A DNA stretch of 55,724 nt, taken from the NCBI RefSeq assembly GCF_016428645.1, contig NZ_JAELXW010000050.1:1-55724 (forward strand). The letters are read 5' to 3'. Positions 48,361 to 55,568 of the stretch are shown piece after piece. The position numbers and the translations under genes are program-made. The first letter of the stretch is position 1; each line of letters starts with the position of its first letter. Under the pieces are notes generated by a model. That model searched no databases. It had not been told where the DNA came from and saw only the letters and a program-made list of their open reading frames with translations. The DNA is from Glycomyces salinus. GTDB lineage: Bacteria > Actinomycetota > Actinomycetes > Mycobacteriales > Micromonosporaceae.

Positions 48361-49053
48361 TCAGCTCGTCCAGATGTTGGAGTAGCCGCTGCTCTGGTAG
48401 CCCTCGGTCGCCGTGATCATGTAGTAGGCGAAGCTTCCGAGGTTCATTCCCGCGCCCGCCCACGCGTCGAAGTGGTTCCCGGTGGTGATCTGGCCGCCGG
48501 AGTAGTTCTTCGAGGTGCGGACGCTCCAGTACTGGTCGAAGGTCTGGGTGCCCTCGACCGACGGGGCGTCGTAGCGGGTCGTCTTGTAGATGTCGTACGT
48601 GCCGCCGTCGCTGTTGACCGTGCCGCGGTGCTCGCCGGTGGGGCGGTAGGAGCCCCAGTTGTCGACGATGTAGTACTCGACGAGCGGGTTCGAGGTCCAT
48701 CCGTAGACGCACAGGTAGGCGTTGCCGGACGGGCTGAAGTTGCCCGACCAGTTGACGGTGCGGCGGCCGCCGTTGCTCCAGCCCTTGCCGATGACGAAGT
48801 TCCCGGTGTTGGACCAGTCGACGGAGTAGTTGCCGCCGGACTTGAGCACGCACGAGACGGAGCCGGGAGCGTCGGTCCAGAACGAGTAGAAGTAGCCCTC
48901 GTGGGTGCCGGTCTGGTTCGAGGTCACTGTCTGGTCCGCGTGAGCGGTACCGGGCATGAGCAGTGCGGACGCGCCGAGCCCCAGGAGTCCGGCACCGCCG
49001 AGCAGCAGGCTCCTGCGGCTCTTGGGGTTCTGGGGGGCGTTCTCTTCGGACAT
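48361..49053 (-). CDS. Endo-1,4-beta-xylanase, glycoside hydrolase family 11
   Basis: A 230-residue exported enzyme with a twin-arginine signal ([20 protein letters not shown], cleavage near AHA-DQT). The GH11 jelly roll is clear: [36 protein letters not shown], the nucleophile Glu in [36 protein letters not shown] and the acid/base Glu in [11 protein letters not shown]. It hydrolyses internal beta-1,4 bonds of xylan. It has no carbohydrate-binding module, the protein ending right after the catalytic domain. A very clear sigma70-type promoter, repeats and a xylanase-type palindrome lie upstream. Confidence 0.96.
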
Positions 49054-49160
49054 GGATCCTCCTCGATCGATTCGGCCTGGTGCGGCCGCCGCGCGTCGGG
49101 CGACCGGAGTTCGAGCCCCCATCACTTTGTATTGATGAGAGTCGATTTGTTTCGTTCGCA

Positions 49161-49189
49161 ACGATATGTCCGTGCCAACGGTGTGTCAA
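49161..49189 (-). promoter_or_regulatory. Xylanase promoter
   Basis: On the minus strand TTGACA (49189-49184) and TATCGT (49166-49161) are 17 bp apart, a near-consensus vegetative promoter. The leader would be about 100 nt. Confidence 0.75.
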
Positions 49190-49366: not shown

Positions 49367-50158
49367 TCACAGCCACCGGGCCTTGCGGGCGGTGCGGCGC
49401 AGGACCTTCAGCAGGACCGGCCCGGTCAGGGCGATCAGGACGGCCGTCGTCACCGCCCGGCCGATGTCCCAACCCAGCGAGGTCGCCAGCGTGTAGGCGA
49501 CGAGCCGGGGCAGGTTCTCCCCGGGACCGGCGCCGGGGACGTACGCCAGCTCGCCCTGGGTGAACACGAACGGCCACAGCGACATGTTCAGCATCAGCCC
49601 GTAGGCCAGCGAGGCCACCAGGGCGTAGGCGACCAGCATGGCGAGCTCGGCGGCGCGCCCGCCCCGGCTTGCCGGGGCGCGCCCCGGCAGCAGGCCCGCG
49701 CCCAGGCCGACGAACGCCGAAGCGAACATCTGGTACGGCATCCACGGCCCCACCCCGCCGGTCAGCAGCGCCGAGGCGAACAGGCCCGTATTGCCCAGGA
49801 TGAACCCGAACGCGGGCCCGAACACCCTGCCGGCCAGGACGATCAGGAAGAACACCGTCTCCACTCCGGCCGCTCCGGCCCCGAACGGACGGACGGCCGC
49901 GACCACCGCCGACAGCACGCCCAGCATCGCCACCGCCCGGGCGTCCATGCCGCCGTCGGACAGCTGTACCAGTGCCACGGCCGTCACCAGCGGCAGCAGC
50001 AGCGCGAACAGCCAAGGGCCCGAAGTCGTCTCGGTCAGCACGCCTCCGGGCTCGGCCAGCAGCGGCCACCCCATCGCGACCAGCCCGAACCCGGCTGCCA
50101 GCGCCACGGCCAGACCACCGCGCAGGCGCAGAACCGGACGAGGGCTAGCGGCCGCCAT
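49367..50158 (-). CDS. ECF transporter S component, probable cobalamin-specific
   Basis: A 263-residue integral membrane protein with six to seven helices, including GPWLFALLLPLVTAVALVQL, AAGVETVFFLIVLAGRVFG and LGNTGLFASALLTGGVGPWM. The length is larger than most S components and similar to those next to SCO2322-type genes. The S component binds the vitamin and docks on the T/A module. It starts 14 nt inside the end of the double ATPase gene. The cobalamin riboswitch at the head of the operon is the reason to propose B12 as substrate. Confidence 0.85.
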   Translation of the reverse strand: MAAASPRPVLRLRGGLAVALAAGFGLVAMGWPLLAEPGGVLTETTSGPWLFALLLPLVTAVALVQLSDGGMDARAVAMLGVLSAVVAAVRPFGAGAAGVETVFFLIVLAGRVFGPAFGFILGNTGLFASALLTGGVGPWMPYQMFASAFVGLGAGLLPGRAPASRGGRAAELAMLVAYALVASLAYGLMLNMSLWPFVFTQGELAYVPGAGPGENLPRLVAYTLATSLGWDIGRAVTTAVLIALTGPVLLKVLRRTARKARWL

Positions 50159-51749
50159 CGGCCCCGCCCAGCGCCGCGGCAACCTCGGCCACCGTCAGCC
50201 AGCCCGGCAGGATCTTCTCCACCTGCGGGGCGAACATCGGTGAGGCCGAGACGATCTCCCGCGCCGGGCCGTCGGCCACCACCTGCCCGTCGGAGAGGAT
50301 CACCACCCGGTCGGCGAACTCGGCCACGAACTCGACGTCATGGGTCGCCACCGCCACGCAGTGCCCGGCCTCGGCCAGTCCCCGCAGGCGGCGAGCCAGG
50401 GCCGCCTTGCCCGGATAGTCCAGGCCGCGCGTCGGCTCGTCGAGCAGCAGCAGCGGCGGGGCCGCCGTGAGGGTGACGGCCAGGGCCAGCGCGAGCCGCT
50501 GCCCCTCGGACAGGTCCCTGGGATGGGTGTCGGCCCCGATCCCCTCGGCCAGGTCGGCGAGGATCTTCGCGCAGGCCCCGGCGCTCGCGCCGCCGTCGCG
50601 GTCGGCCGCTTCGCATTCGGCAGCGACGGTGTCGGCGTACAGCAGATCCGCCGGCTCGGCCGGGACCAGGCCCGCCAGGGTGCGGCGCCGCACCGGCTTG
50701 AGCCCGCCCGGATCGGCGCCCTCGATCGCGACCGCGCCGCCCGACCGCTTCCCGGTGCCCTGGAGTGCCCACAGGAGACTGGACTTGCCGGACCCGTTGC
50801 GGCCCATCAGAGCGATCCGCTCCCCGCGCCGGGCTTCCAGGTCGATCCCGTCGACGGCGTGGACCCCCGGGTAGTCGACGGTCACCGCCTCGGCCACCAG
50901 CAGCGCCGGCCCGGCGCTCGGCCCGCCCCTCTCGGCCGGGGCGAGCCCCGCCAGGCGCTCGCGCAGCCCGCCCGCTTCCCGCCTGGCCTGCCTGATCGTG
51001 ACCGGCGGGCCCGGCCAGTCGGCGAGCTTGCCCAGGTGGACGACGGGAGGCGCGACCGGCGAGTCCGCCAGGATCCGGCCGGTGTCACCGGCGCGGACCT
51101 CGCCGCCTTCGAGCAGCAGCGCCGAGTCGGCGTACTGCACGACGCGCTCGAGGCGGTGCTCGGCGAGCAGGACGGTGACGCCGAGGTCGTGCACGAGCCG
51201 GTGCAGCGCCGAGAGGACCTCGTCGGCCGCGCCGGGGTCGAGCGCCGAGGTCGGCTCGTCCAGGACCAGCGCCCGCGGCCCGGCGACCAGGGCCGCGCCG
51301 ATCGCGACCCGCTGCCGCTGCCCCGAGGAGAGCGCCGCGAGGGTGCGGTCGCGCACCTCGGCCAGGCCCAGCAGGTCCACGATCTCGGTGACGCGCTTGC
51401 GCATCGCGGCCGGAGCGATACCGAGTTGCTCGGCGGTGTAGGCCAGTTCGAGTTCGACGTCGTCGGTGACGAACCCGGCCAGGGGGTCCTGGGCGACGTA
51501 GCCGACCACATCGGCCAGGTCGGCCGGGGTCGAGCCGCGCACCGGCCGCCCGGCGACGGTGATCTCGCCGCTCATGGTCCCGCCGGTGAAGTGGGGGACC
51601 AGGCCGTTGACGGATTTGAGCAGTGTGGACTTCCCGGCGCCGGTGGCGCCGACCAGCAGGCAGAACTCGCCTTCGGGGACGGTGAAGGAGGCGTCGTCGA
51701 GGATCGGCCGGTCGGCGTACCGGAAGGTCACCTGGTCGAAGCGGATCAC
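50145..51749 (-). CDS. ECF transporter ATPase with two fused ABC domains
   Basis: A 534-residue protein with two complete ATPase units. The first (about 1-235) has Walker A VGATGAGKSTLL, signature LSSGQRQRVAIGAALV, Walker B ALVLDEPTSALD; the second (about 295-520) has MGRNGSGKSSLL, LSEGQRLALALAVTL, LLLLDEPTRGLD. Both His switches (AEHRLE, ATHDVE) are present. It is the energy-coupling A/A' pair in one chain. The GTG start overlaps the T-component stop (GTGA). Confidence 0.95.
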   Translation of the reverse strand: MIRFDQVTFRYADRPILDDASFTVPEGEFCLLVGATGAGKSTLLKSVNGLVPHFTGGTMSGEITVAGRPVRGSTPADLADVVGYVAQDPLAGFVTDDVELELAYTAEQLGIAPAAMRKRVTEIVDLLGLAEVRDRTLAALSSGQRQRVAIGAALVAGPRALVLDEPTSALDPGAADEVLSALHRLVHDLGVTVLLAEHRLERVVQYADSALLLEGGEVRAGDTGRILADSPVAPPVVHLGKLADWPGPPVTIRQARREAGGLRERLAGLAPAERGGPSAGPALLVAEAVTVDYPGVHAVDGIDLEARRGERIALMGRNGSGKSSLLWALQGTGKRSGGAVAIEGADPGGLKPVRRRTLAGLVPAEPADLLYADTVAAECEAADRDGGASAGACAKILADLAEGIGADTHPRDLSEGQRLALALAVTLTAAPPLLLLDEPTRGLDYPGKAALARRLRGLAEAGHCVAVATHDVEFVAEFADRVVILSDGQVVADGPAREIVSASPMFAPQVEKILPGWLTVAEVAAALGGADGGR

Positions 51750-52828
51750 GCGGGCCTCCCAGCGGCGGCGGTTCTGGCGGACGGGACGAGCAGGGCCGGC
51801 GCGGCGGCGGCGATGATCCCGGCGGCGGCGACAGGCGGCACCGGCGGCATCGAGACCGGGTTCGCGGCCGGCCACAGCGCGCCCGGATCGAGCGCGGCGG
51901 CCGCGACGGTCCCGGCGACGGCGGCGGCCCCGGAGGCGACGACGGCCCAGTCGCGGCCGCTGAACCGGTCGGTGCGGTAGCGGGTGTGCGGGACGCGCGC
52001 CGAGGCGAAGGCGATCCCGAACACCGCGGCGGCGGCCCCGAGCGCGAGCACGCTCCACGCGAGCGGCGCGGGGGTGGCGGACCCGAGCAGCGCGTACGCC
52101 CCGGCGCACAGCCCGAGCAGGCCGGTCAGCAGCATCGCCGAGGTGGCTCGGCGGTCGCGGGAGGGGATGCCGGCGGCGCGGCCGTAGCCGCGCGAGGCCA
52201 TGGCCGCGGCCAGCGCCAGGGACCGGTCGAGCGCGTCGTGCAGGACCGGCACGACGACGGTGCGCATGAAGTGGGCCGGGCCCCTCCCGGTGGTGCCGCG
52301 CAGCGCCCTGGCGCGCCTGATGCGCGCGACCCCGGCGACCAGTTGTGGGGCCACCGACAGCGCGACGACCACGGCGACGCTGACCTCGTAGAGCGCGGCG
52401 GGCATCGACCGCAGGAGCCGCCTGGGGCTGGCCAGGGCGTTGGCCGCGCCCACGCACACCAGGAGGGTGGCCAGGCGCAGGCCGTCGTAGGCCGCGGCCA
52501 GCGCGCCCTCGGCGGTGACCGCGCCGCCGAGTCGGAAGCCCGCCGCCCAGTCGGGAAGCCGGACCTCGGGCAGCGTGAACAGGACCGTGGCCCCGTCGGC
52601 GCCGCCGAACACGATATAGAAGACCATCCTGACGGCGATGGCCGTCCCGCCGATGAGCAGGAACACCCGGTAGGCGCCCGACCAGGGCTCGTCACCGCGG
52701 CACCAGGTGACTACTAGGCCGGAGACGGCGACGATGAGCGCCAGCAGCCACGGGTTGCCGGTCCGGCTGGCGGCGGTGGCCAGCAGCAGCGCCCAGCCCC
52801 ACCAGGCGACCGGGTGCGCCCGCCTCAT
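51746..52828 (-). CDS. ECF transporter T component (CbiQ/EcfT-like)
   Basis: A 360-residue membrane protein, six to eight helices. Two coupling motifs contain the Ala-Arg-Gly-type signature: RRARALRGTTGRGP and AAAMASRGYGRAAG. These helices transmit ATPase movement to the S component. The C-terminal extension adds about four more helices, longer than the usual 260-residue EcfT. The gene is coupled to the upstream and downstream genes by ATGA and GTGA overlaps. Confidence 0.93.
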   Translation of the reverse strand: MRRAHPVAWWGWALLLATAASRTGNPWLLALIVAVSGLVVTWCRGDEPWSGAYRVFLLIGGTAIAVRMVFYIVFGGADGATVLFTLPEVRLPDWAAGFRLGGAVTAEGALAAAYDGLRLATLLVCVGAANALASPRRLLRSMPAALYEVSVAVVVALSVAPQLVAGVARIRRARALRGTTGRGPAHFMRTVVVPVLHDALDRSLALAAAMASRGYGRAAGIPSRDRRATSAMLLTGLLGLCAGAYALLGSATPAPLAWSVLALGAAAAVFGIAFASARVPHTRYRTDRFSGRDWAVVASGAAAVAGTVAAAALDPGALWPAANPVSMPPVPPVAAAGIIAAAAPALLVPSARTAAAGRPA

Positions 52829-53403
52829 GAGGCGGAGCCGCGTCGCCGCCGCCAGACGGCGAGGGCGATGATCGCGACCAGGGCGACCGCGCCGATCAGC
52901 CACGTCGACGACGGGGTCGACTCGGACTCGGATTCGCTCTCGCCCTCGGCTTCCCGGGCCGCGACCGCGGCCTGCCCGGGTTCGATGGACGGCGGGGCCG
53001 AGCCGTCCCCGAACACCCATCCTTCGATGTCGCCCGGATCGGGCTCGAAGGTCCCGGCACCGACACTGGAGAACGTCCACTTCTCGCCGTCGCCGTGCCA
53101 GTACGACCAGGACGCGCCGGCCTCGGGCATGTCGGCGCACTCGGCGCGCGGGTACCGGTCGATGCGGCAGACCGCGCCGGGGAACGATGCGACCTCGTCG
53201 ACCTCGAACCCGGCCTGGGTGAGCGCCTCGATCCCGGTGGCGGGGTCTTCGGCGCAGCCGACCTCCGGGTCGTGCTCGTCATGCCGGTCGACCACGACGA
53301 CCACGCCGCCGCATTCGCCGTCCTGGGCCGAGACCGGCGCCGCCCACGCCGGGACGACCGCGAACGCGGCGGCCCCGGCGAGGGCGGCGAGGCGTCGGAT
53401 CAC
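52825..53403 (-). CDS. SCO2322/DUF4430-like exported membrane-anchored protein
   Basis: A 192-residue protein. The signal peptide runs to about residue 28 (VIRRLAALAGAAAFAVVPAW, cleavage near SA-QDG). The exported domain has four Cys (GECGG, VGCAED, VCRIDR, AECADM) and the stretch ASWSYWHGDGEKWTFSSVGA, then PGDIEGWVFGDG, which follows the pattern of a DUF4430 domain (YW-x-x-nG, vG, GD-x-x-W-x-F). A Ser/Glu linker (ESESESES) leads to one C-terminal membrane helix and RRRR. It starts by GTGA overlap on the preceding alpha-repeat gene. I believe this family is annotated SCO2322; its role is not established. Confidence 0.85.
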   Translation of the reverse strand: MIRRLAALAGAAAFAVVPAWAAPVSAQDGECGGVVVVVDRHDEHDPEVGCAEDPATGIEALTQAGFEVDEVASFPGAVCRIDRYPRAECADMPEAGASWSYWHGDGEKWTFSSVGAGTFEPDPGDIEGWVFGDGSAPPSIEPGQAAVAAREAEGESESESESTPSSTWLIGAVALVAIIALAVWRRRRGSAS

Positions 53404-54605
53404 TCCTCGTCCTTGGCCTCGTCCGACGACGAGGCGGAACCGGCCCCGGCGGCGCTCTCGGTCGAGGAGCCGCGGCGGCCGCGGACGACCGCGAAGGCGA
53501 TCGCGGCGACCAAGAGCACGACCGCTGCGGCGATCACCCACGGCAGCCAGGAGGTGCCTTCGTCGTCGGCCTCGTCATCGGCGGCCGCCTCGGTGGTCTG
53601 GTCGTCCTCGGCGCCGCATTCGACGGCGGGGATCTCGGCTTCGATGGCGCTCGCGTCGAGTTCGGCCAGGCTCTGCCCCGACAGCGGAACGAGCGCCTGA
53701 GTGGTGGCGAACTGGAGGGAGAGCGGGTCCGAGCCGTCGTCGTCCTCGGAGAAGCGGATGGCGCCGGCGGATTCGTCGCCGCAGCCGACCTGGAGGCCGA
53801 TGAGGTAGGTCAAGGAGGTCTCGGCGGCCTCGGGCCGTCCGTCCGAGGCCAGCATCGCCTGCGAGGCCATCGCGGTCGAGTTGGCGTTGGCGTCGAAGTC
53901 GCCCGCCTCGCCCTGGTTGTCCTCCAGCCAGGTCAGGGCCGCCTCATAGGCGTCGGAGGCGTCGCCGCCGATCGCGGCCAGGGCCGAGGTGGCCACTCCG
54001 GTCGTGTCGGGGCTGCCGGTGCAGTCGCCGCCTTCGAGGGCGTCGTAGGTGAAGCCGCCGTCGTCGCACTGGGCCGCCAGAAGCGTCTCGGTGATCTCGT
54101 CGGTGACGCCGTCGTCGGTGCGGGCCAGCCCGAGCGCGGCCCAGGCGACCGAGTCGGGGGCGACGCCCTCGAGCGGGGCGTCGGCGACCTCCTCGGCCAG
54201 GCGGACGCCGCCGAAGTCGGTCGGGTCGCCTCCGGCGGTGGCCACCACGTACATGACCTTGCCGGCCGCTCCGGGAGCGAGCACGGACTCGTCGGTCTCG
54301 GGGTCGGGCTGGTAGATGTAGGAGGACAGGACGTCGGGCTCGTTGAGCCATTCGAGGGTGTCCTGCACCTGGTCGCCGCCGACTCCGGCGGCCATGAGGC
54401 CGATGACGGCGTCCATGGTGCCGCCGACGCCGATGTCCTCCCAGGAGGGCCCTTCGGCTTGAGCGGTGAGCCAGGCGGCGGCCGCGGCGGACGGGTCGCC
54501 GAACGGCTCGTCCTGGGCCCCGGCGGGGGAAGCGGGCGCGAGGGCGACGATGGGCAGGACCGCGGCGGCAGCGGTGAGCTTCCGCCAGGTCGACGTTTGG
54601 CGCAT
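53400..54605 (-). CDS. Exported membrane-anchored terpenoid-cyclase-like alpha-repeat protein
   Basis: A 401-residue protein with a signal peptide (cleavage near GAQ-DEP). Residues 35-320 are alpha-alpha repeats of the prenyltransferase/squalene cyclase type: DPSAAAAAWLTAQ, APDSVAWAALGLAR, QCDDGGFTYDALEGGD, SPDTTGVATSALAAIGG, NSTAMASQAMLASDG, LQFATTQALVPLSG. No cyclase catalytic DXDD is seen, so the fold is probably used for binding. A Thr/Glu/Asp linker leads to one membrane helix (LPWVIAAAVVLLVAAIAFAV) and a basic, Ser-rich tail. It is first in the riboswitch-controlled ECF operon; the next gene starts by GTGA. Confidence 0.9.
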   Translation of the reverse strand: MRQTSTWRKLTAAAAVLPIVALAPASPAGAQDEPFGDPSAAAAAWLTAQAEGPSWEDIGVGGTMDAVIGLMAAGVGGDQVQDTLEWLNEPDVLSSYIYQPDPETDESVLAPGAAGKVMYVVATAGGDPTDFGGVRLAEEVADAPLEGVAPDSVAWAALGLARTDDGVTDEITETLLAAQCDDGGFTYDALEGGDCTGSPDTTGVATSALAAIGGDASDAYEAALTWLEDNQGEAGDFDANANSTAMASQAMLASDGRPEAAETSLTYLIGLQVGCGDESAGAIRFSEDDDGSDPLSLQFATTQALVPLSGQSLAELDASAIEAEIPAVECGAEDDQTTEAAADDEADDEGTSWLPWVIAAAVVLLVAAIAFAVVRGRRGSSTESAAGAGSASSSDEAKDEE

Positions 54606-54681: not shown

Positions 54682-54694
54682 TTGATTATGGACA

Positions 54695-54850
54695 GTGGCG
54701 TCCGGCGGGCATTCGGGCTCACGCGGGCGGGCCGAGCCATCGTTCGAGAGGTTGTCTGCTCGGCTGGAGTTCTGGAACGAACCGCGACTACCGTTGCGGG
54801 TCAGCGCCGGCTTCCGACCGGACTTCCCCCGCAGGGCGCCTGTTGAGTTT
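54695..54850 (-). ncRNA. Cobalamin riboswitch (aptamer)
   Basis: The minus strand reads GGGGGAAGTCCGGTCGGAAG then CCGGCGCTGACCCGCAACGG, the hallmark core of the B12 aptamer (54827-54791). A B12-box-like AGCCCGAATGCCCGCC follows at 54718-54703, then GCCACTG. It lies between a consensus-like promoter and the alpha-repeat gene and would switch the whole ECF operon off when B12 is plentiful. The exact ends are estimated. Confidence 0.85.
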
Positions 54851-54856
54851 CCGTTC

Positions 54857-54886
54857 ATTCTGCTGCGCGGGGCTACGGGGTGTCAA
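54857..54886 (-). promoter_or_regulatory. Promoter of the B12 riboswitch-ECF operon
   Basis: On the minus strand TTGACA (54886-54881) and CAGAAT (54862-54857) are 18 bp apart. The predicted start near 54850 is just ahead of the aptamer. Confidence 0.7.
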
Positions 54887-54943
54887 GAAGGTCGAGCGCT
54901 GAGTGGAGCTGTTCACTGGAGCCACTCGGGCACCTTCCACCTC

Positions 54944-54980
54944 CCGGTTATTGACCGGTAGCGCCGAGTGTCGATACGGT
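54944..54980 (+). promoter_or_regulatory. TetR promoter and operator, apparently leaderless
   Basis: TTGACC (54951-54956) and TACGGT (54975-54980) are 18 bp apart. CCGGT-TATTG-ACCGG (54944-54958) overlaps the -35. The GTG at 54987 is 7 nt past the -10. Confidence 0.65.
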
Positions 54981-54986
54981 GCAAAT

Positions 54987-55568
54987 GTGAGCAGAAATAA
55001 GAATGCCGATTTGGACAGAGTCCTCCGCGCCGCCACCCGAACCTTCCTCGAGCGCGGATTCACGGCTACCTCCATGTCGGACCTGGTGGCGGCCACGGGA
55101 ATGAACCGGGCCGGTCTCTATTCGGCCTTTGGATCGAAGCATCAGCTTTACATCACCGCACTCAACCGATATCGCGAGGACACCGAACCCGAGATGCGGG
55201 CCCTCGCCAGACGGGCGCTCGACGGCGACCCCGACGACGCCGTGGACGCCCCGAGAGTGATCGGCGACATACTGGAAGTGGTGGCCCGCCACTCGAAGGA
55301 AGGCGGCTTCGTGGTGCGCGCCGCCGTCGAGCTGGCGGACGACCCGGCGACGATGCGCCGCGTCCAAGAGGCCTGGACCGAACTCGAACGCGACCTGACC
55401 TCGATCCTGGCCAAGGCGGCCGACCGCGGCGAGGCCAGCATCGCCGACCCCAGGCGGCTGGCCCGCACGGTCCTGGTGTTCATCCAGGGCGCCTACGTCG
55501 TCGGCCACGCCGACGAGGAGGAGCGGCGCCTGGCCGACGCCGTCGCCGGACTGACCGACCTGCTGTGA
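54987..55568 (+). CDS. TetR-family regulator (AefR-like)
   Basis: A 193-residue regulator starting at GTG. The helix-turn-helix reads DRVLRAATRTFLERGFTATS, MSDLVAATGMNRAGLYSAFG, SKHQLYITALNRY, typical of the AefR/TetR_C_6-like group. The C-terminal domain includes RHSKEGGFVVRAAVELADDP and GAYVVGHADEEER. The palindrome over its own -35 suggests autorepression. It is divergent from the B12 operon with only 64 bp between the two -35 boxes, so it could affect that operon too, but its usual target for this group is an adjacent enzyme or transporter beyond the window. Confidence 0.9.
   Translation: MSRNKNADLDRVLRAATRTFLERGFTATSMSDLVAATGMNRAGLYSAFGSKHQLYITALNRYREDTEPEMRALARRALDGDPDDAVDAPRVIGDILEVVARHSKEGGFVVRAAVELADDPATMRRVQEAWTELERDLTSILAKAADRGEASIADPRRLARTVLVFIQGAYVVGHADEEERRLADAVAGLTDLL

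Follow-up and report, generated by a model that had tools for sequence, protein, structure and literature searches.

In a contig of Glycomyces salinus (NZ_JAELXW010000050.1, from assembly GCF_016428645.1), two genes for exported proteins, which we will call A and B, lie between a cobalamin riboswitch and the genes for the T, AA' and S components of an energy-coupling factor (ECF) transporter. (We use "the window" for the entire stretch of 55,724 nucleotides that was analyzed.) We propose that A and B are probably the two halves of a corrinoid clamp of the transcobalamin or intrinsic factor type, which is located at the cell surface and feeds the ECF importer. We infer that the ligand is vitamin B12, that A and B bind it jointly, and that it is handed off to S. 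Our proposal is supported by natural fusions of the two domains in both orders (A-B and B-A), by the fold matches of a fusion and of B, and by the riboswitches that precede A or B in 37 of 44 genomes. These 44 are the genomes that match the SCO2322 family (NF040672) at E ≤ 0.001 in a set of 296 from the phylum, itself a sample of a larger group; the 14 control genomes had no match.

A sequence-only reading of the window had already suggested a split transcobalamin-like pair. The anatomy of the proteins, the predicted fold, the regulation, and the comparative context support the pair, but "split" needs refining: some related bacteria have both halves in one piece, and in a few we found B but no A.

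Predicted folds and natural fusions

The best fold matches of the predicted structure of B are B12 carriers. In this predicted structure, B has a beta domain of the kind found in the animal carriers: residues 27–135 of the model align to the carriers' beta domains, and the model also shows a C-terminal helix. The sequence-only reading had described the end of B as DUF4430-like. The predicted fold agrees with this, but Pfam's model for DUF4430 (PF14478) does not detect it and has no match in the window genome. We ran PF14478, as well as PF01122, on 40 of the 44 genomes (G128, G161, G182 and G193 were left out), and PF14478 was over its cut-off in three of the 40. In two genomes, a DUF4430 protein that is over the cut-off is encoded inside the same locus, either between the riboswitch and A (L062) or after A (L092). 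Another genome, G107, encodes a stand-alone DUF4430 protein (L091, 8595–9278). Close to its start is a cobalamin riboswitch that scores below the threshold (27.1 bits, G107:C8:27247-27369), and the protein might be a further B12 protein outside any ECF operon.

B belongs to the same family as the SCO2322 family and PF28005. PF28005 is precomputed on P0060, which is nearly identical to window B, and on most relatives of B. The name of NF040672 states no function. Window B matches NF040672 over just 34 residues (a partial match of 32.3 bits, which does not reach the cut-off of 85), because the Streptomyces-like members of NF040672 are circularly permuted relative to B.

In the window, A and B are on two genes, while the relatives P0075–P0090 have a single chain with the alpha domain followed by the beta domain. 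Both domains are found in one chain in 19 of 100 collected proteins (13 AB, 3 ABB, 2 BA, and 1 BAA); the collection was seeded with a fusion, so this is not a frequency. That the domains are fused in either order speaks for a joint action of A and B. When we aligned the 16 AB or ABB chains, 13 had cell-wall-binding repeats (CWB2) and one had an SLH domain. (P0092 and P0094 were left out of the fold alignment as they were misaligned in the B region.) At three loci from one genus, which includes Euzebya contigs, the fusion is a single open frame within the same ECF operon (L043, L050, and L071). Outside of its cell-wall repeats, the best Foldseek match of a natural fusion is transcobalamin. The placement of the domains differs between the predicted, ligand-free fusion and holo intrinsic factor, with an rmsd of about 21 Å over both domains.

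Circular permutants also occur. In all eight operons of genus g8 that have an SCO2322-family gene over the cut-off, A and B are both permuted (L033–L036, L053, and L055–L057). From the name of the SCO family (S. coelicolor) and from the class, we infer that g8 is Streptomyces. In these operons, A matches positions ~80–106 to 281 of our A-family hidden Markov model (HMM) first and ~3–112 second, within one open frame. Similarly, B matches positions ~40–62 to 105 of its HMM first and ~2–66 second, although the second pieces are weak (E of about 2e-4 to 4e-3). B is also permuted in G062 (L038), and A is permuted in G194 and G108 (L067 and L076). The second operon of G171 has both A and B in the ordinary order. 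That the toroid tolerates permutation implies that its ends lie close together.

Predicted toroid of A and its matches to carriers and cyclases

The fold of window A is taken from the homologous domain of P0075; the two are joined by the HMM alone, which matches window A at E = 1.2e-76 (HMM positions 4–282). In structure comparisons, the predicted toroid of P0075 aligns to intrinsic factor, to transcobalamin, and to terpenoid cyclases. At the sequence level, neither A nor B gets a name over the cut-off from Pfam or NCBIfam. Plain phmmer searches against the sequences in the Protein Data Bank (PDB) gave no B12 carrier with A or B as the query and no match at all with S, and a profile of the A-B chains matched squalene cyclases but no B12 carrier. 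PF01122 has no match in the window genome and none over the cut-off in the 40 genomes; at E ≤ 1, it matches in four of the 40, and three of these matches are at A loci.

Several relatives of A are named "prenyltransferase/squalene oxidase repeat-containing protein." So we also considered that A might be an exported enzyme resembling class II terpenoid cyclases, with only an incidental link to B12 uptake. Class II terpenoid cyclases share the motif DxDD-T/S-A/G. This pattern is absent from all 124 distinct A sequences (many of which are close relatives); a looser D.DD is found somewhere in the A region of 15 sequences, which were not made distinct. Also, A is exported, linked to riboswitches, and fused to B. 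A role as a cyclase is scarcely credible, and because the motif is missing, we rejected it.

Cobalamin riboswitches at A and B

The sequence-only reading had placed a cobalamin riboswitch ahead of the operon, and this held up. No riboswitch was found in the window at the Rfam gathering score, but a search by E-value recovered one. The match spans the full RF00174 model (1–189), and about 80 bases separate its end from the start codon of A. It is the second of two cobalamin riboswitch matches in the host genome. A riboswitch is at the same place in all four of the Glycomyces loci that we tested, and it is over the cut-off in three of them (G. tenuis, G. arizonensis, and G. terrestris).

Of the 37 genomes with a cobalamin-type riboswitch upstream of A or B, 20 are over the gathering score (19 for RF00174, and G200 for the AdoCbl riboswitch, RF01482) and 17, including the window, are below it. 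As a control, we examined 28 sub-threshold matches to RF00174 in 22 genomes: 19 immediately precede an A or B gene, and the other 9 are elsewhere. (At most 72 candidates per genome were scored in these 22 genomes, so in a large genome the absence of a match says little.) At 37 of 38 loci, the A or B domain begins 126–341 nt from the riboswitch. At the remaining locus the gap is 570 nt, with a DUF4430 protein in between. In G294, the riboswitch is ahead of an additional B gene, which points toward the operon. We did not find a riboswitch at A or B in seven of the 44 genomes: G023, G107, G193, G225, G002 and G242 (where A is near the end of a contig), and G108 (which was searched at the gathering score only).

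The strongest single point for common control by B12 comes from the four genomes in which A is not linked to B. In all four, A has its own cobalamin-type riboswitch (30.4, 32.5 and 30.1 bits for RF00174, and 52.6 bits for the AdoCbl riboswitch), and so does B (30.0, 28.1, 29.9, and 36.6 bits). Two separate genes are thus under the control of one vitamin. In three of these genomes (G134, G284, and G102; L097, L098, and L099), which are from one family, there is also a glycine riboswitch a few kilobases from the unlinked A; by eye, the large gene behind it looks like glycine dehydrogenase.

Conservation of the gene neighborhood

We counted neighbors using stop-to-stop frames, with HMMs built from the families for A and B and with the window's proteins as queries for T, AA', and S. 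A is beside B in 37 of the 44 genomes and elsewhere in the genome in four (G102, G134, G166, and G284; in G166, the match crosses one TGA, yet an open frame of 338 amino acids covers it). In G058, the contig ends after B begins, and the only matches to A elsewhere are weak and partial (1.7e-10); this genome could not be classed. In the other two genomes (G062 and G225), A was not found. An ECF ATPase along with T or S is present at 40 of the 44 loci; in G058, G108, and G200, the contig stops before any ECF gene. In G036 (L060), a riboswitch is followed in a row by a diverged B, then A, then a further B, but 13 kb of sequence hold no ECF gene.

A further 18 loci were taken from metagenome bins and from named genomes, and A precedes B in 16 of them. 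Another locus begins at the edge of a contig, and A is on a different contig of that genome. In Corynebacterium suicordis (L124), B is followed by the ECF genes T, AA', and S; no A was found in the genome, and there was no riboswitch match at the locus. The recurrence of the arrangement in dozens of genomes, the fusions, and the riboswitches of the unlinked A genes lead us to reject a chance neighborhood.

The main rival to our proposal is that B catches B12 by itself and that A is an accessory, such as a docking toroid, that does not contact the vitamin. This could account for C. suicordis, G062, and G225, which have B and ECF genes without any A that we found, and for the extra B beside the fusion in some operons (L043, L050, and L071). 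Furthermore, there is a solved structure, judging by its title, of the isolated beta domain of human transcobalamin with cyanocobalamin (5np4). However, A is tied to B12 by its fusions to B in either order, by its position next to B in most genomes, and by its own riboswitches where it is unlinked. We consider it fairly unlikely that B acts alone.

The likely ligand and B12 use by the host

Among named organisms, the closest relatives of A and B come from Glycomyces species. The host's assembly (5.4 Mb, 98.8% complete) encodes the B12-dependent methionine synthase MetH (1371.7 bits) and the class II ribonucleotide reductase NrdJ. The match to NrdJ is in two pieces, about 1.3 kb apart, within one open frame of 1402 amino acids (G000:C131:90685-93807), which is the pattern expected of an in-frame insertion, for example an intein. 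The B12-independent MetE is directly behind the only other cobalamin riboswitch that we found in the host and is followed by a predicted alanine racemase gene (L052 8698–12481, G000:C138). We searched for three families of the corrin pathway. The models for CobI/CbiL and CobJ/CbiH gave about 43 bits, far under their cut-offs and both at one place, and CobN had no match. Since MetH and NrdJ are present and the corrin genes that we sought were not found, the host probably uses B12 yet cannot make the corrin ring.

The ECF genes are as the sequence-only reading had them, with T, AA', and S following A and B in overlapping frames. CbiQ is over its cut-off, ABC_tran matches AA', and S is sub-threshold. 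AA' also matches TIGR04521 (252.6 bits, under the cut-off of 330), and the paired ATPases are present as two stretches in one chain. A profile of the S family had no match to any solved S component; S is usually the last gene of the operon in the relatives.

T matches CbiQ, the "cobalt transport protein," and some cobalt transporters are regulated by B12. This raises the question of whether the operon encodes a cobalt transporter with unusual extracellular metal-binding partners. However, CbiQ is Pfam's name for ECF T components generally, B matches B12 carriers, and little use of cobalt is expected where the corrin-pathway genes that were sought are not found. Transport of cobalt seems very improbable.

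The riboswitch and the ECF context do indicate a corrinoid, but not which one, so the device might capture corrinoid precursors or other cobamides (such as cobinamide) instead of cobalamin. ECF-CbrT of Lactobacillus delbrueckii, a proven B12 importer of the ECF type, takes up cobalamin and cobinamide alike, according to the available text of its report (PMC5997447). But the fold matches of B are carriers of complete cobalamin, and the host retains B12-dependent MetH and NrdJ. We consider it unlikely that a ligand other than cobalamin is the main one.

Proposed mechanism and relation to known systems

As we envision it, A and B would each be exported and stay attached to the outside of the cytoplasmic membrane through a C-terminal helix of their own. 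The beta domain of B and the toroid of A would close over one molecule of B12 at the cell surface, which would raise the local level of the scarce vitamin. The captured B12 would pass to the S component of the adjoining transporter, and the T-AA' module would turn S, carrying B12 inside. When B12 is plentiful, the riboswitch would turn the operon down.

The animal carriers (intrinsic factor, transcobalamin, and haptocorrin) likewise combine an alpha/alpha toroid with a small beta domain, and they have the alpha-then-beta order of the natural bacterial A-B chains. In contrast, the window's pair is bacterial and consists of two chains, each anchored in the membrane. It adjoins an ABC-type importer, whereas the animal carriers work with an endocytic receptor. 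The placement of the domains in the fusion model also differs, and there is no family-level sequence match over the cut-off.

To our knowledge, ECF transporters do without separate binding proteins. ECF-CbrT shares the ECF architecture and the predicted substrate with the window's system, but in the available text (PMC5997447), it differs from the window in that the latter has a dedicated operon, a single-chain AA', and two extracytoplasmic partners in front. ECF modules behind cobalamin riboswitches in the actinobacterial acI lineage were proposed to be cobalamin transporters, as is the case here; the accessible part of that report mentions no A- or B-like proteins (PMC5301498). The window's S family matches no solved S component by sequence, a result that speaks neither for nor against kinship with CbrT. 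A different sort of B12 catcher, BtuG, is a beta-propeller. According to the portion of the report that is available, BtuG of Bacteroides binds B12 with femtomolar affinity and works with BtuB (PMC6143338). It resembles our pair in being a surface-anchored B12 catcher that is paired with a B12 importer, but there it is a single outer-membrane lipoprotein (PMC6143338, same portion) and here there are two anchored chains. Outside the phylum of the window's host, RUMGNA_00854 of Ruminococcus gnavus (PDB 3u7z) is titled "putative metal binding protein."

Each half of the pair has a known fold; the novelty lies in their being split, permuted in some genomes, and combined with an ECF importer. As the sequence-only reading had supposed, there seems to be no earlier description: among the papers listed from the open-access literature in PMC, judged by titles and the beginnings of abstracts, none describes A, B, or a transcobalamin-like pair in bacteria. 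As far as we know, many bacteria must import B12, and little is known about how Gram-positive bacteria catch it outside the membrane. If our proposal is true, it gives a function to two families that now lack one, and it adds extracytoplasmic capture proteins to the ECF class of transporters. The natural splits, the fusions in both orders, and the permutants are ready constructs for studying how the domains close over the vitamin.

A bacterial counterpart also raises the question of where the animal carriers came from. We speculate, quite tentatively, that the B12 clamp is an old bacterial invention, which Actinobacteria kept as separate halves, as fusions in either order, and as permutants that serve ECF importers, and that the animal carriers descend from a bacterial alpha-beta chain. 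If so, ECF transporters would here have their first dedicated device for extracytoplasmic capture.

Organization of the locus

The features of the operon are listed in Table 1. An exported, C-terminally anchored pair at the head of the operon had been predicted by the sequence-only reading and was confirmed at these coordinates; we identified the signal peptides and membrane segments of A and B by eye. We set the start of B at a GTG (the mechanical open reading frame begins at 53541) and the start of S at an ATG (the mechanical frame begins at 50182). The stops and starts overlap at all four junctions (GTGA for A/B, ATGA for B/T, and GTGA for T/AA'; AA' and S also overlap), which suggests that A, B, T, AA', and S form one translationally coupled unit.

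Table 1. Features of the A-B-ECF operon in the window.
Feature	Coordinates	Strand	Basis
Whole cluster: cobalamin riboswitch and five overlapping genes	54858 down to 49367	minus	searches and sequence reading
Cobalamin riboswitch aptamer (RF00174), operon leader	54687..54858	-	27.3 bits, E 4.9e-5, below gathering score of 31.5
Gene A, 401 aa: signal peptide, alpha/alpha toroid, acidic linker, C-terminal membrane segment, tail	53400..54605	-	sequence reading
Alpha/alpha toroid domain of A (alpha-domain counterpart)	53667..54497	-	A-family HMM coordinates
Gene B, 192 aa, GTG start: signal peptide, ~105-residue beta domain, acidic linker, membrane helix	52825..53403	-	sequence and model
Beta domain of B (beta-domain counterpart), DUF4430/transcobalamin type	52999..53307	-	B-family HMM, 3e-34; model
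ECF T component, CbiQ family, 360 aa	51746..52828	-	PF02361, 27.9 bits, cut-off 25
ECF AA' ATPase, two ABC domains in one chain	50145..51749	-	PF00005, 164.4 bits, two stretches
ECF S component, ATG at 50158	49367..50158	-	PF12822, 24.1 bits, below cut-off of 30.7

Upstream of the operon and divergent from it is a gene for a TetR-family regulator (54903–55568, plus strand), with a weak ScbR-like match (54.4 of 150 bits). Downstream is a gene for a GH11 xylanase (48361–49161, minus strand; PF00457, 249 bits).

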